Shown here piece after piece: positions 1 through 5,331 of a stretch of 5,331 nt of DNA. The translations under genes and the position numbers were made by a program. The stretch covers positions 1 to 5,331 of the forward strand of contig DSCZ01000424.1 of NCBI GenBank assembly GCA_011048855.1. The letters are read 5' to 3'. The notes beneath the pieces are model-generated. The model made no database searches. It saw nothing but the letters and a program-made list of their open reading frames with translations, and was not told the origin of the DNA. Every line of letters begins with the position of its first letter. Within the stretch, counting starts at the first letter, position 1. This stretch comes from Desulfobacteraceae bacterium (lineage in GTDB: Bacteria > Desulfobacterota > DSM-4660 > Desulfatiglandales > Desulfatiglandaceae).

Positions 1-194
1 ACGACAAGTTGTTTTCCGAGTACAGGGTCCTGAGCGGCATGGGCAAACTGGTTCACACCCTGGGGCTGGAGTGGCCGGTGGAAAGCGATCCGGAAGTTAA
101 GCCTGAATCAAGGTTCATTGAGAGCACGATCCCGCCGAGGGTGGAGATCGATAACTTTTTAGTCGAAGGATGGCCGCCCCACCTTTCGAGGTAA
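1..194 (+). CDS. TolC-family outer-membrane channel protein, C-terminal end (partial, LapE-like)
   Basis: Only the last 63 residues are present. The frame is open from base 3 and ends at TAA 192-194; the gene begins left of the window. The stretch 'FSEYRVLSGMGKLVHTLGL' matches the last helix typical of TolC-family proteins, where a Y-R-V/I-L-x-x-x-G-x-L pattern precedes a short variable tail. In that family the protein is a trimeric outer-membrane channel through which type I systems export substrates. The tail is proline- and acid-rich and ends in HLSR, with nothing to define its role. Together with lapG and lapD just downstream and a LapB-type exporter further on, it is probably the outer-membrane part of the same adhesin secretion system (LapE role). 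That role is inferred from context; the family call rests on one short conserved block. An unrelated efflux channel is possible but less likely. Confidence 0.72.
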   Translation, partial: DKLFSEYRVLSGMGKLVHTLGLEWPVESDPEVKPESRFIESTIPPRVEIDNFLVEGWPPHLSR

Positions 195-223: not shown

Positions 224-274
224 ATGAACCATAAAAAAAAATTGATTCCGTTTCGATTGTTTTCCTGTTTTTGA
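224..274 (+). other. Signal-peptide start of lapG, out of frame through an A9 tract
   Basis: ATG at 224-226 opens a 16-codon frame, MNHKKKLIPFRLFSCF, stopped by TGA at 272-274. A run of nine A lies at 233-241. With ten A the reading becomes MNHKKKIDSVSIVFLF and then continues as LIVLAGVDTVYT in the lapG frame: a basic n-region, a hydrophobic core and a small-residue end, as in a Sec signal peptide. The ribosome-binding signal is weak (GAG at 216-218, GGA next to the ATG). The fusion would give a protein of about 226 residues, in the LapG range. The frame offset and the tract are read directly; that this is the true start of lapG is inference. Causes could be a consensus error, phase variation or transcriptional slippage. 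Confidence 0.7.
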
Positions 275-903
275 TAGTTCTCGCCGGCGTCGATACTGTT
301 TATACGAAGCAAACCTTTCGTATAAGCGAGAAGGTGCTTGAGAATGTGGGGAGTATGTACGGAGGGGATTCGGTGGACCGCCTGCTTCAATGGCAGGAAT
401 TGATCCACCGAAACGACAGCTCCACCAACCATGAGAAACTGGAAAAGGTCAACAGCTTTTTTAACGGGCTCATCGAGTTCGTGGACGACATCGATCTCTA
501 CGGTGTACGGGACTACTGGGCCACCCCGATAGAATTTCTTGCCAGGGGCGCGGGCGATTGTGAAGATTTTGCCATCGCAAAATTTTTTACACTGAAAATG
601 ATGGGAGTAAAAGAAGATAAGCTTAATATTACTTATGTTAAAGCTTTAAGCTACAATATTCATCATATGGTTTTGACTTATTACGAGGAACCCGGGGCCG
701 AACCCCTGGTTCTCGATAACCTTGTTGACAGTATCGAACCCGCCGGCAACCGCCCTGATCTCCTGCCTATATTCAGTTTCAACGGTACCGGGCTATGGCT
801 GGCCAAGGAACGGGGAAGAGGAAAATCTGCGGGCAGCAGCAGCAGGCTCAAGGCCTGGCGCGATCTGCTGCAGAGAATGGCAAAAGACGGGCTGCAAAAT
901 TAA
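271..903 (+). CDS. lapG: LapG-family periplasmic transglutaminase-like cysteine protease
   Basis: Bacterial transglutaminase-like cysteine protease of the LapG family, which in Pseudomonas cleaves the N-terminal retention module of a large surface adhesin in a calcium-dependent way. Numbering from the TTG at 271, the catalytic triad is visible: Cys97 in GAGDCEDF, His132 in NIHHMVL and Asp149 in LVLDNL. Asp96 and Glu98, which flank the cysteine, match the calcium ligands known in Pseudomonas LapG. The preceding DYWATPIEFLARG block is also a family hallmark. The C-terminus is basic and has no further domain. The TTG at 271 has no Shine-Dalgarno sequence and would leave only half of a hydrophobic leader; the real start is probably ATG 224, joined through the A9 tract described separately. 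The gene follows the tolC-like gene by a short gap and ends 8 bp before lapD, which suggests an operon. Codons about 200-230 bases before the middle of the window's AT-rich patch are normal, but 601-680 is unusually AT-rich. Family call is firm; whether this allele is expressed as a secreted protein is open. Confidence 0.9.
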   Translation: MIVLAGVDTVYTKQTFRISEKVLENVGSMYGGDSVDRLLQWQELIHRNDSSTNHEKLEKVNSFFNGLIEFVDDIDLYGVRDYWATPIEFLARGAGDCEDFAIAKFFTLKMMGVKEDKLNITYVKALSYNIHHMVLTYYEEPGAEPLVLDNLVDSIEPAGNRPDLLPIFSFNGTGLWLAKERGRGKSAGSSSRLKAWRDLLQRMAKDGLQN

Positions 904-911: not shown

Positions 912-2873
912 ATGACCCTCTACCGCCAGTTGATCATATTCACCCTGATTCTTTTCCTGCTGCTTTTTTCAGGCACGTGGTTCGCCAGGCTTTCCACAAC
1001 CCGGGCCTTTCTCACGGCACAGCTCGAATCCCATGCGCAGGACACGGCGACCTCCCTCGGCCTTTCCATAACTCAATACATCCAGGACATAGAAGTGGAC
1101 ATGCCCGTCGTTGAAAGTATGATGAGCGCTGTGTTTGACAGGGGATATTACCGTTTTGTCAAATTTGTCGATGTCAAGGGTGAAGTTCTGGTTGAGATGG
1201 CCCTGGACGTGGCCGTGGAAGGTGTGCCGGCGTGGTTTGTGCGCATGTTCCCGCTTTCGACTCCAGAGGCCTCCGCCAACGTCATGACCGGCTGGATCCA
1301 GGCGGGAACCGTTCGTGTCAAAAGCCATCCAGGCTATGCCTATGTAACCCTCTGGCAGGACAGCGTTTATATGTCATTGTGGTTTGTCGCCTGCGGAATT
1401 TTTGTGCTTTTGGCCGGGGCTGTTGGTCTCCGTTTCCTGTTGAGGCCCCTTTACGTCGTTGAAGAGCAGGCGGAGGGACTTTGTAGAATGGAATACCGGA
1501 TTCAGGAGAAAATCCCCCGCACAAGGGAGCTGAGGCGCGTGGTCGAGGCGATGAACCGTATGACCGTCAAGGTCAAAGAGATGTTCAATGAAGAAGTAGC
1601 GCGGGCCGAGGATTTCAGGTCGCGTGCCTATCACGATGATTTGACGGGCTTCGGCAACCGCCGGTATTTTACCGGCCAGGTCACCGCGCGGCTTGACTGC
1701 GGGGACGGAGCCGTCGAAGGGGCTCTTGTGATTGCAAAGATACAGGGACTGGATGAGGTCAACAAAACGCGCGGCCTTCAGGCCGGTGACGATTTTATCA
1801 AGAGGGCGGCTTCCGTCATAAGGGAATTCGTGTCCGTCTATTCGAACGCCATACCCGCCAGGCTCACCGGTGGGGATTTCGCAGTTTATTTTCCTGATAC
1901 CCCGCCGTTTGAGGCGGAAGGGATCGCTTCGGGGCTCGCACAGAGGTTGAGTGGTCTTGCAGCCGAAAATGTGGCCTTGGACGATAATATCGCCCACGTG
2001 GGAGCGGCTGCATACGAGGTTCCGACGACACTGGACAGGCTTTTATCCGAAGCCGACCTGGCACTCAGGACCGCTGTGCGTGCCGGCCCGAACTCCTGGC
2101 ATGTAAGGGCCGTGTCCGACGAAACGGAAAGGATGCCCCTGGGTGAACAGCAATGGAAGGAGTCCTTGAGCAGGGCGCTTGAAAAGCGTTCCATCGAGCT
2201 GGTCGGCCAGGTGGTTGTAAAAACCTGCGAACGTGATCATCTGCTTCATCTGGAAATTTTCTCCAGGATAATCCAGGAGGACGGCAGGCATTTGAGCGCC
2301 GGGGTTTTTCTGCCTTTCGCCGAGCGGCTCAATCTCGTCCCCACCCTCGATCGCCAGGTGCTGGAACGTGTGAGGGATCTGGATCCTGGAAGGCTGGGGG
2401 TGAACCGGATCGCTGTGAACGTATCGCCGGCCTCCCTGCGGGATGATGCTTTCCGAAACTGGATGAAAACATTCCTGGAGGATTTTCCCGCCGAATCGCC
2501 ACGGATTGTTTTTGAATTCCCGGAATACGGCGCGGTGCACAATCTGGAGATGGTGAGGGAGTTCGGCGCCTATGCCAGGGAGAAGGGCCATGGAATCGGC
2601 CTGGATCATTACGGCCAGAGTTTTTCCAACCTTGGCTACCTGCAGTCTCTTCGGCCGGAATATGTGAAGATCGACAGCGCTTTTACCGGAGAGCTGAAGG
2701 GTGAGGAAAGCGACGGCAGATTTTACATGGGTTCCCTGTGCAGTGTTGCACACAGCATCGATATCTCGGTGATCGCCGAGGGGGTGGAAATGGAGAGCCA
2801 GTGGCTTATATTGAAGAAACTCAACATCGATGCAATCCAGGGTTACTTTGTCGGGAGGCCGAAACCGGTTTAG
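912..2873 (+). CDS. lapD: LapD-family inner-membrane c-di-GMP receptor with degenerate GGDEF and EAL domains
   Basis: 653-residue protein. A first membrane helix at about 7-25 is followed by a periplasmic LapD/MoxY-type sensor domain (about 26-152). Within it, TGWIQAG (126-132) holds Trp128, in the place of the tryptophan by which Pseudomonas LapD grips LapG. A second helix (about 153-176), a HAMP segment (about 177-230), a GGDEF domain (about 238-395) and an EAL domain (about 415-653) follow. The GGDEF site reads TGGDF (319-323) and the EAL motif reads EIF (448-450). The usual DDFG motif is DHYG (565-568), so one metal-binding Asp is lost. Asn503, Glu535, Lys586, Glu623 and Gln643 remain. 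This fits a receptor that binds c-di-GMP without making or degrading it, as known for LapD. When bound it is expected to sequester LapG in the periplasm. It starts 8 bp after lapG, a typical receptor-protease pair. Residual enzyme activity cannot be excluded from sequence. Confidence 0.92.
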   Translation: MTLYRQLIIFTLILFLLLFSGTWFARLSTTRAFLTAQLESHAQDTATSLGLSITQYIQDIEVDMPVVESMMSAVFDRGYYRFVKFVDVKGEVLVEMALDVAVEGVPAWFVRMFPLSTPEASANVMTGWIQAGTVRVKSHPGYAYVTLWQDSVYMSLWFVACGIFVLLAGAVGLRFLLRPLYVVEEQAEGLCRMEYRIQEKIPRTRELRRVVEAMNRMTVKVKEMFNEEVARAEDFRSRAYHDDLTGFGNRRYFTGQVTARLDCGDGAVEGALVIAKIQGLDEVNKTRGLQAGDDFIKRAASVIREFVSVYSNAIPARLTGGDFAVYFPDTPPFEAEGIASGLAQRLSGLAAENVALDDNIAHVGAAAYEVPTTLDRLLSEADLALRTAVRAGPNSWHVRAVSDETERMPLGEQQWKESLSRALEKRSIELVGQVVVKTCERDHLLHLEIFSRIIQEDGRHLSAGVFLPFAERLNLVPTLDRQVLERVRDLDPGRLGVNRIAVNVSPASLRDDAFRNWMKTFLEDFPAESPRIVFEFPEYGAVHNLEMVREFGAYAREKGHGIGLDHYGQSFSNLGYLQSLRPEYVKIDSAFTGELKGEESDGRFYMGSLCSVAHSIDISVIAEGVEMESQWLILKKLNIDAIQGYFVGRPKPV

Positions 2874-3050: not shown

Positions 3051-3380
3051 CTACAAGATTTCTTCCACGAGCACGGTGCTTGAGGACAACTTTTTCCGGA
3101 AGCGCCGGCGTTCCTGGATTCTTTTCTGGGCTTCCACCGGAAGTTCGGTGAACGTGATGATTTTTTTTTCGATCAACAGGTCTATAAGGTCCTCGATGGT
3201 GCGTACAAGACCGAGATCGGAAAGATCCAGCGACATTCGGAGGGAATCCTCATCGTCGTTATTATTGAGAAATTCCCATATTTCCGAATCCAGGGATGTT
3301 TTTGACTCGGTGGCATCAACAGTTTTTTTTCGGCTCAGGGAAACGATTTTGCCGTCTTTGTCTCGGGCTACGTAGAACAT
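3051..3380 (-). CDS. Small conserved protein of unknown function (Pseudomonas 'tryptophan synthase subunit beta-like' family)
   Basis: 109 residues, no signal peptide or membrane helix, so probably cytoplasmic. It begins MFYVARDKDGKIVSLSR, continues through an acidic middle (NNNDDEDSL, about 39-47), then a helical block, LVRTIEDLIDLLIEKKIITF (58-77), the motif TELPVEAQKRI, and a basic segment (RRRFRKK, 91-97). This layout recalls small proteins in Pseudomonas and related genomes that carry the misleading name 'tryptophan synthase subunit beta-like'; there is no enzyme domain here and I assign no function. The ATG at 3380 is preceded by GGGA at suitable distance. A GTG at 3392 would add four residues but has no such signal. 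The gene faces lapD and is divergent from lapB, with its own likely promoter. It contains A9 and A8 tracts (3161-3169 and 3323-3330, read as T on the plus strand), both in frame. Confidence 0.75.
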   Translation of the reverse strand: MFYVARDKDGKIVSLSRKKTVDATESKTSLDSEIWEFLNNNDDEDSLRMSLDLSDLGLVRTIEDLIDLLIEKKIITFTELPVEAQKRIQERRRFRKKLSSSTVLVEEIL

Positions 3381-3414
3381 TGAGGTTCCCACATTTAGAG
3401 GTAAATTTTTAATG

Positions 3415-3536: not shown

Positions 3537-5331
3537 ATGGCACGTTCCGATATTCAATTGAAAGAAGCGGCTGCGACTTGGGCCACGGGCGACGAGACCG
3601 AAACCCATGACGACCCTCTTCTCGACTGCCTTATCCAGTTGACCCGGCTGCACGGACGGTCAGCCTCAAAAACCGCCCTGGTTTCGGGGCTTCCCCTTGT
3701 CAGGAACCGGCTCACTGTCGAACTTTTTTCAAGAGCCGCCGAGCGTGCCGAGTTTGCTTCCCGCGTGGTGAAAAGACCTCTCAATAAAATCTACAGCCTG
3801 CAGCTACCCGCCGTACTCCTGTTAAACGAAGGGCAGGCCTGTGTGCTTGTGGAGAGGAGTGAAGACACGTTTAAACTGCTTCTGCCGGAAACAGGCATGG
3901 GGGCGACGGAGATATCGAGGGAGGAACTGCAGAAGCTTTATACGGGTTACGCGATATTTGTCCGCCCCAGGTTCAGGCAGGAAGCGAAATCGAGCGAAGA
4001 ACTCAGCTATCTCTCAACAAAAAGCTGGTTCTGGGGGACGATTTTCAAGTCCTGGCGGATCTACAGGGATGTTTTTGTAGCTTCCTTTTTGATAAATCTC
4101 TTTGGCCTTGCGTCCCCCTTCTTTGTTTTGAATGTATACGATAGGGTCATTCCCAACAATGCCGTTGAGACACTCTGGGTTCTTGCAACGGGTATTGCGG
4201 TGATTTACCTGTTCGCACTGGTCATGAGGGTCCTGCGCGGCTATTTTGTCGATGAGGCCGGAAAGAAAGCGAACCTTCGGATATCCTCGATGCTTCTCCA
4301 CAAAGTGCTCGGCCTGCGCATGGAGGTCCGGCCCAAGTCCATCGGCTCTTTTTCAAGAAATATGCAGGAATTTGAAACCATAAGGGATTTTATAACTTCT
4401 TTTTCAATTACCACCCTGATAGATCTTCCGTTTGTGGCGCTTGGCCTTTTTGTCATCTGGTATATAGGGGCGGAGATCGTATTCATTCACATAACCGCGA
4501 TAGTGCTGCTGCTGCTGTATTCGATCATCATCCAGGGACCGCTCCAGAGGGCCGTGGGAAATACCTTTCAGGCCTCCGCACAGAAAAACGCAATCCTGGT
4601 CGAAGGGCTCGCCGGCCTCGAGACCATCAAGATGCTGGGCGCCGAGAGCCAGATACAGCGCGCATGGGAGGATTCGGTCGCCTACATTGCAAAGTGGAGT
4701 GCCAAGTCGAGGCTGCTTTCCGCTTCTGTAAGCCATTTTTCTTTCTTCGTTCAAAGCCTGGTCGTGGTGCTCGTGGTGGTGGCCGGGGTTTACATGATTT
4801 CCGACGGTTTCCTCACGATGGGCGGCTTGATCGCTCTCGTGATTCTTTCGCGCCAGGCGGTGGCTCCCATGGCTCAGGTGGCCAACCTGGCGACCCGATT
4901 CCATCGAGCGAGGGCCGCACTCAAGTCCCTCAATACGATCATGGAGCTTCCTGTGGAGCGACCCGCGGGAAAGGCATTCCTTCACAGGACGAGGTTTGAA
5001 GGAGCCATCGGGGTGAAAAACCTTGTCTTCGCTTATCCCGGGCAGGGCGTGAACGTGATCAACAACATAACCCTCGATATAGGCGCCGGTGAAAAGGTCG
5101 GCATTATAGGTCCCGTGGGTTCGGGAAAGACGACGTTGGGCAAGCTGATTCTCGGCCTGTTTGAACCCACGGGGGGGATGGTCAGCATGGACGGCACGGA
5201 TATCCGTCAGATAGACCCCGCACAGCTGCGCCGTTTTATAGGGTACGTGCCGCAGGACATCGTGCTTTTCAGGGGTACGGTGAGGGACAATATCACGATA
5301 GGGACCCACGATGTGGATGACTCCTTGATCA
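3537..5331 (+). CDS. lapB: LapB/LssB-type type I secretion ABC exporter (permease-ATPase), partial
   Basis: 598 residues are visible; family members are about 700-720 long, so the end lies beyond the window. The N-terminus (about 25-145) is a C39-like domain. Judged against HlyB, Pro27 replaces the catalytic Cys and Ala101 the His, so it should not cleave leader peptides and probably docks the substrate. Six membrane helices follow at about 179-203, 213-234, 292-312, 314-335, 402-422 and 429-445. NVYDRVIPNNAVETLWVLATG after the first helix is typical of exporters for large RTX adhesins. The nucleotide-binding domain starts near 487, with A-loop Tyr500, Walker A GPVGSGKTT (525-533) and Q-loop Gln573; the signature, Walker B and H-loop are outside the window. 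It acts in the inner membrane with a membrane-fusion protein and a TolC channel. The frame is unbroken. The start at ATG 3537 is uncertain by three codons. Confidence 0.93.
   Translation, partial: MARSDIQLKEAAATWATGDETETHDDPLLDCLIQLTRLHGRSASKTALVSGLPLVRNRLTVELFSRAAERAEFASRVVKRPLNKIYSLQLPAVLLLNEGQACVLVERSEDTFKLLLPETGMGATEISREELQKLYTGYAIFVRPRFRQEAKSSEELSYLSTKSWFWGTIFKSWRIYRDVFVASFLINLFGLASPFFVLNVYDRVIPNNAVETLWVLATGIAVIYLFALVMRVLRGYFVDEAGKKANLRISSMLLHKVLGLRMEVRPKSIGSFSRNMQEFETIRDFITSFSITTLIDLPFVALGLFVIWYIGAEIVFIHITAIVLLLLYSIIIQGPLQRAVGNTFQASAQKNAILVEGLAGLETIKMLGAESQIQRAWEDSVAYIAKWSAKSRLLSASVSHFSFFVQSLVVVLVVVAGVYMISDGFLTMGGLIALVILSRQAVAPMAQVANLATRFHRARAALKSLNTIMELPVERPAGKAFLHRTRFEGAIGVKNLVFAYPGQGVNVINNITLDIGAGEKVGIIGPVGSGKTTLGKLILGLFEPTGGMVSMDGTDIRQIDPAQLRRFIGYVPQDIVLFRGTVRDNITIGTHDVDDSLI

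Follow-up and report, generated by a model that had tools for sequence, protein, structure and literature searches.

The window, by which we mean the whole 5,331-base stretch analyzed, lies within a Lap-type adhesin locus and takes in the 3′ end of an outer-membrane channel gene, lapG, lapD, a small gene and the start of a transporter gene. In such systems, the cut made by LapG frees the cell from its adhesin, and LapG is sequestered by LapD. The channel gene (3–194, forward strand, open at the window edge) is LapE/TolC-like, as judged by tblastn matches upstream of lapG in relatives. Its stop lies 29 bases ahead of an ATG at position 224, and its homologue in the related locus L105 matches Pfam OEP. 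In another related locus, L107, the channel gene frame stops early, soon after a conserved SEYRVLSGMG stretch and unlike in relatives; possibly, the frame is broken there.

Downstream of lapG, the lapD gene (912–2873, forward strand) encodes LapD_MoxY_N, GGDEF and EAL domains recognized by Pfam, and the NCBIfam LapD model aligns from residue 1 of the reading that begins at ATG 912. In place of the catalytic consensus GGDEF, the LapD motif (within 1660–1900) reads GGDFA, as expected of a c-di-GMP receptor. The transporter gene (3537–5331, forward strand), which runs off the window, encodes a LapB-like type I secretion ABC transporter by Pfam and by TIGR03375 (732.3 bits, above the cut-off of 693.1). 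Between lapD and the transporter gene lies a small conserved gene on the reverse strand (3051–3392), which has no Pfam or NCBIfam match. We found 16 relatives of its product and homologues in 33 of 115 related loci, several of them just after lapD.

The region that joins the channel gene to lapG contains two reading frames that meet at a homopolymer. One begins with ATG 224–226 and continues through AAC and CAT (230–232) into a run of nine A (A9, 233–241). Under standard decoding, this 16-codon frame (224–274, forward strand) supplies the start and basic n-region of a LapG leader and terminates at TGA 272–274. The other, the open lapG frame (235–903, forward strand), is shut by TAA 232–234 just 5′ of the run and carries the hydrophobic core of the leader followed by the protease domain. 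No ATG, GTG or TTG occurs among the 12 codons that it spans over 235–270. The first usual start codon in this frame is TTG 271–273 (forward strand), which falls within the hydrophobic core and shares bases with the TGA that ends the ATG frame; the lapG open reading frame as listed begins there (271–903, 210 amino acids). The window thus offers no in-frame export signal for its protease. By eye, TTG 271 lacks a preceding Shine-Dalgarno-like sequence, and ATG 224 has just a weak GAG (216–218) ahead of it. A promoter scan of positions 1–400 gave just one weak match (214–242; 0.2 expected), and no RNA families were found at gathering thresholds. The first-pass annotation had placed the run, ATG 224, TGA 272 and TTG 271 at these positions and had described TTG 271 as all that the open lapG frame offers, in the middle of the core and lacking a ribosome-binding site; our reading of the sequence, a frame scan and inspection by eye agree with that description.

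Two related loci, L103 and L105, share a GVRTI stretch in front of the leader, and a similar GVRNS occurs in the ATG frame of the window near 197–211. This stretch could be coding or could mark a conserved control site. In both of these loci, the lapG frame extends upstream for dozens of codons with no usual start near the core.

The ATG frame and the lapG frame are both open only over 235–271. Using a codon-usage table built from the bodies of lapG, lapD and lapB (1,433 codons), we obtained a maximum junction score of 12.86 bits at 235–241. The best 13-residue stretch in the lapG frame after the A run has a Kyte-Doolittle mean of 3.02; among relatives (the 92 proteins of at least 220 amino acids in the best 120 listed), core hydrophobicity has a median of 3.0 and a lowest value of 2.37. 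On the same scale, the ATG-frame piece peaks at 0.34 and the reading from TTG 271 at 1.23. Since the codon-usage maximum falls at the A run and the lapG frame carries the entire hydrophobic core immediately beyond it, we place the change of frame at this run. The A run is thus the best-placed junction between the signal peptide frame and the protease frame, and the earlier claim that it splits the two stands on both codon usage and hydrophobicity. We also considered a frame change at the T5 run (268–272), which would give residues that, by eye, resemble the leaders of some relatives. This site is disfavored: it has the minimum junction score in codon usage (6.67 bits), and the ATG-frame piece is low in hydrophobicity.

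Beyond the junction, the protein matches Pfam PF06035 (Peptidase_C93) with 60.8 bits against a cut-off of 27, and this domain aligns without a break to the solved relatives 4u65 and 4fgo. The motifs GAGDCED, HMVLTYY and LVLD, which are presumably the sites of the catalytic Cys, His and Asp, align unchanged to 4u65 chain E. Over the last 175 residues, the window LapG shares a mean identity of 73.3% with 12 outgroup proteins, and a leader-bearing relative, P0004, shares 72.6%. By these alignments, the LapG domain is intact and is evolving no faster than its relatives, which would fit a functional gene as well as a break too recent to show. The score for the NCBIfam equivalog "cysteine protease LapG" is 242.7 bits, below the cut-off of 320, with model positions 36–217 of 221 aligned. 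The protease can be called LapG-type by its domain and neighbors, rather than by the equivalog.

To see how relatives encode the leader, we surveyed 102 places with a tblastn match of E ≤ 1e-20, comprising 101 of the 115 related loci and the window; 14 loci were dropped. We accepted any in-frame ATG, GTG or TTG no more than 45 codons upstream of the hydrophobic core, which is a loose test. L001 and L114 are one and the same place, and L015, at a contig edge, is uncountable. An in-frame start precedes the core in 98 of the 100 countable relatives, the nearest start codons being TTG (44), ATG (32) and GTG (22). The places without an in-frame start upstream of the core are the window, L113 and L069, and L069 does have an ATG, which the script placed inside the core. 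L113 has ATT where a close lapG locus, L110, has ATG, and may use a non-standard start codon or have lost its start. A run of eight A or T lies in the open frame at 13 loci, with none longer among the surveyed loci. These DNA comparisons cover no close relative: the best match in whole genomes is 68% (G069 and G196, in overlapping samples of 389, 194, 3, 395, 194, 3, 194 and 389), genome contigs reach at most 63% among the best 80 relatives listed, and the 22 relatives on viral contigs reach at most 48%, over a short stretch.

Runs of at least nine A or T occur twice in the window, at 233–241 and 3161–3169. First-order Markov resampling of the window (1,000 times) gave a mean of 0.18 such runs, with at least one in 15.8% of resamplings and at least two in 1.7%. 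The 115 related loci contain 11 in 1,021,808 bases, or 0.06 expected per 5,331 bases, and the 19 loci of nearer types contain none in 105,973 bases. The nine-A run by itself is unremarkable; its position exactly at a broken frame is remarkable. The second nine-A run lies in frame inside the small gene, as does a run of eight A (3323–3330), and the relatives of that gene are of equal length, with up to 80% identity. Since the small gene is read in frame through 3161–3169 and its relatives have the same length, the assembly handled this run properly. The organism may tolerate such runs by slipping little.

We also looked for the same protein in other records, scoring 7,998 candidates and noting the best 120. 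An identical leaderless protein of 210 amino acids (P0001) is recorded on two contigs, up to 6,549 bases in length. A 98% match (P0002, on a contig of 1,503 bases) begins at the same leucine as the TTG call in the window, and P0003, of the same lineage, is a shorter call of 182 amino acids on a contig that, at 5,331 bases, is as long as the window. When the lapG frame from base 235 was used as the query (residues 1–60), only P0001 and P0002 matched, both from that leucine on. No protein with an in-frame leader was found for this population, in which at most four contigs are represented. The recurrence of P0001 and P0002 is known from protein records, which reveal the absence of the leader but not the A run, and their contigs could share reads with the window. 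The closest protein with an organism name among the best 120 is P0011 (71%), from a metagenome-assembled genome called Desulfatiglandales. By such matches, the host can be placed only tentatively, in Desulfobacterota.

Among the best 120 proteins, eight of the nine best (at least 78%) were called leaderless, compared with 21 of the 111 others (Fisher p = 3.8e-5), using a leaderless threshold of our own and a test that treats near-identical proteins as independent; the others include P0021, a fragment of the P0005 type. As P0001–P0003 are one lineage and P0005–P0007 are nearly identical, a fair count is four of five lineages called leaderless. P0004 has an in-frame leader and groups with P0008 and P0009 within the clade (92/86 support). 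P0026 belongs to the 21 leaderless calls and, of all such calls, is the only one compared with matching locus DNA; it equals L104, whose DNA carries an in-frame leader started by GTG. With P0026, P0004 and the non-independence counting against it, we keep a conserved frame break, as suggested by called starts, as a lead only.

Our preferred explanation, held tentatively and at something short of an even chance, is that A9 is the real genomic state and that LapG is exported at low yield through slippage on the run. A9 would then be real in the population, with the leader start and n-region in one frame and the core and protease in the other. Standard decoding would stop after a 16-residue peptide, and no LapG would be exported. 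A slip on the run, more likely by RNA polymerase, or else by the ribosome in a −1 slip, would give a small share of exportable LapG. As the A run reads as lysine in every frame, the n-region would be basic after the slip. LapG would be limiting, and release from the adhesin would be rarer than in relatives. The junction at the A run, the full-strength core, the one-frame relatives, the intact domain and the recurrent leaderless protein all support slippage. The in-frame leader of P0004, from the same clade, counts against it, as do the second nine-A run of the window, read in frame in a conserved gene, the weak slippage reported for E. coli RNA polymerase on short A runs and the failure to find a stimulatory RNA fold. 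The anatomy, the intact domain, the position of the junction and the leaderless calls in other records are observations, whereas slippage at this run, its frequency and its effect on attachment are inferred. The slippage-controlled switch suggested by the first-pass annotation thus fits the layout without being proven by it.

One description of homopolymer slippage genes calls for two frames whose overlap contains nine or more consecutive A or T, together with homologues that occupy a single frame (PMC1088944); the window's lapG has this arrangement. In six listed cases, proteins made by slippage have single-frame homologues elsewhere (PMC1088944); by analogy, the window's lapG would fall in this class. 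Thermus thermophilus dnaX, like the window, has a run of nine A, and slippage, which is proven there, accounts for half of its product. In Shigella flexneri mxiE, two overlapping frames likewise meet at a homopolymer, in this case a U run, and are joined by an inserted base through proven slippage (PMC1088944). Unlike the arrangement proposed for the window, neither gene joins an export signal to a protease. Citrobacter rodentium tssM1 is also interrupted near an A run, and RNA polymerase slippage rescues ~20%; there the run has eleven A and lies near the 3′ end of the gene, and length variants were measured (PMC4256274). RNA polymerase of E. coli reportedly slips only on seven or more T, and A runs must be longer still; its slippage is reported as weak on short A runs and was below detection on A runs in one assay (PMC6260861). 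A ribosomal −1 slip, a route absent from the earlier annotation, is possible and would also join the frames, as a slippery A AAA AAA heptamer is in register at 235–241. Known frameshifting at A AAA AAA in insertion sequences relies on a stem-loop (PMC4066793). We found no stimulatory RNA fold in 242–321 better than shuffles (z 0.40), in a test of pseudoknot-free folds.

Homopolymers are the usual place of sequence errors, and the first-pass annotation named a consensus error, with lapG intact in the cell, as the main alternative. The in-frame starts in nearly all countable relatives are what an error would predict. We nonetheless consider it unlikely and rank it second, since it is weakened by the leaderless protein that recurs on two contigs and by the 98% relative with the same leucine start, even if these are protein records from contigs that may share reads. 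The failure to find a protein with an in-frame leader and the window's other nine-A run, which reads correctly in a conserved gene, also argue against an error. Rather unlikely, in our judgment, is a simple recent loss, in which a replication slip broke the leader, LapG is not exported and the adhesin is kept permanently. The broken frame is there in the sequence, loss requires no special mechanism, and one survey saw no evidence of function in 40 of its 53 gene groups with homologues (PMC1088944). An intact domain that evolves no faster than its relatives speaks against loss, although a recent loss would look alike.

The first-pass annotation also raised DNA phase variation, in which replication slippage would toggle lapG between cells. 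Here the nearest parallel is provided by the sortase-dependent pilin genes of Bifidobacterium breve UCC2003, in which, as in the window, a homopolymer separates the frame of the Sec signal from that of the protein body, here of a surface-attachment protein; deep sequencing showed that replication slippage joins them (PMC9187656). The pilins have a G tract, whereas the window has an A tract, encodes an adhesin-releasing protease and has been seen in one state. The authors of GeneTack regarded clusters in which poly-A/T lies close to the frame change as possible cases of phase variation (PMC3711429). As no protein of the other state was found among the at most four contigs represented, a small sample for such a switch, phase variation is unsupported and we think it improbable. 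Quite improbable, too, is a bolder form of the slippage explanation, in which a clade of uncultured bacteria deliberately maintains an out-of-frame LapG leader and slippage on the A run sets a low, noisy level of exported LapG, making biofilm exit rare and cell-by-cell, atop c-di-GMP control. We are most doubtful of unusual initiation, whether from a non-standard start codon (ATT 241, for example) or through re-initiation at TTG 271. The ATT in L113 offers a possible precedent for the former, and the overlap of TTG 271 with TGA 272 is of the kind found in translational coupling. However, a start at ATT 241 would lack a basic n-region, and a start at TTG 271 leaves a hydrophobicity well under the lowest value in the 92 relatives. 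The TTG/TGA overlap is also not conserved, since a valine follows the leucine in P0005–P0007, which excludes an overlapping TGA.

The arrangement around the run otherwise resembles known LapD/LapG adhesin release systems, with lapG and lapD adjoining, type I secretion genes on both sides and matching domain families. Elsewhere, the known control of these systems runs through LapD, as in the V. cholerae pair (PMC6890996); the window adds a homopolymer at the leader. Our searches for LapG with phase variation and for LapG with signal peptide and frameshift found no report of homopolymer control of LapG, and the accessible part of the V. cholerae LapD/LapG paper names phase variation only in its reference list (PMC6890996). 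Thus, the kind of arrangement is already known, and LapG as its subject was not met in the literature searched. The lapG of the window is a well-formed candidate, not a demonstrated switch. If LapG export depends on slippage, both copying errors and c-di-GMP would govern detachment. Automatic start calls in the LapG family often drop the leader, as in 29 of the best 120 proteins by our threshold; under the same condition, leaderless lapG annotations would hide working control.
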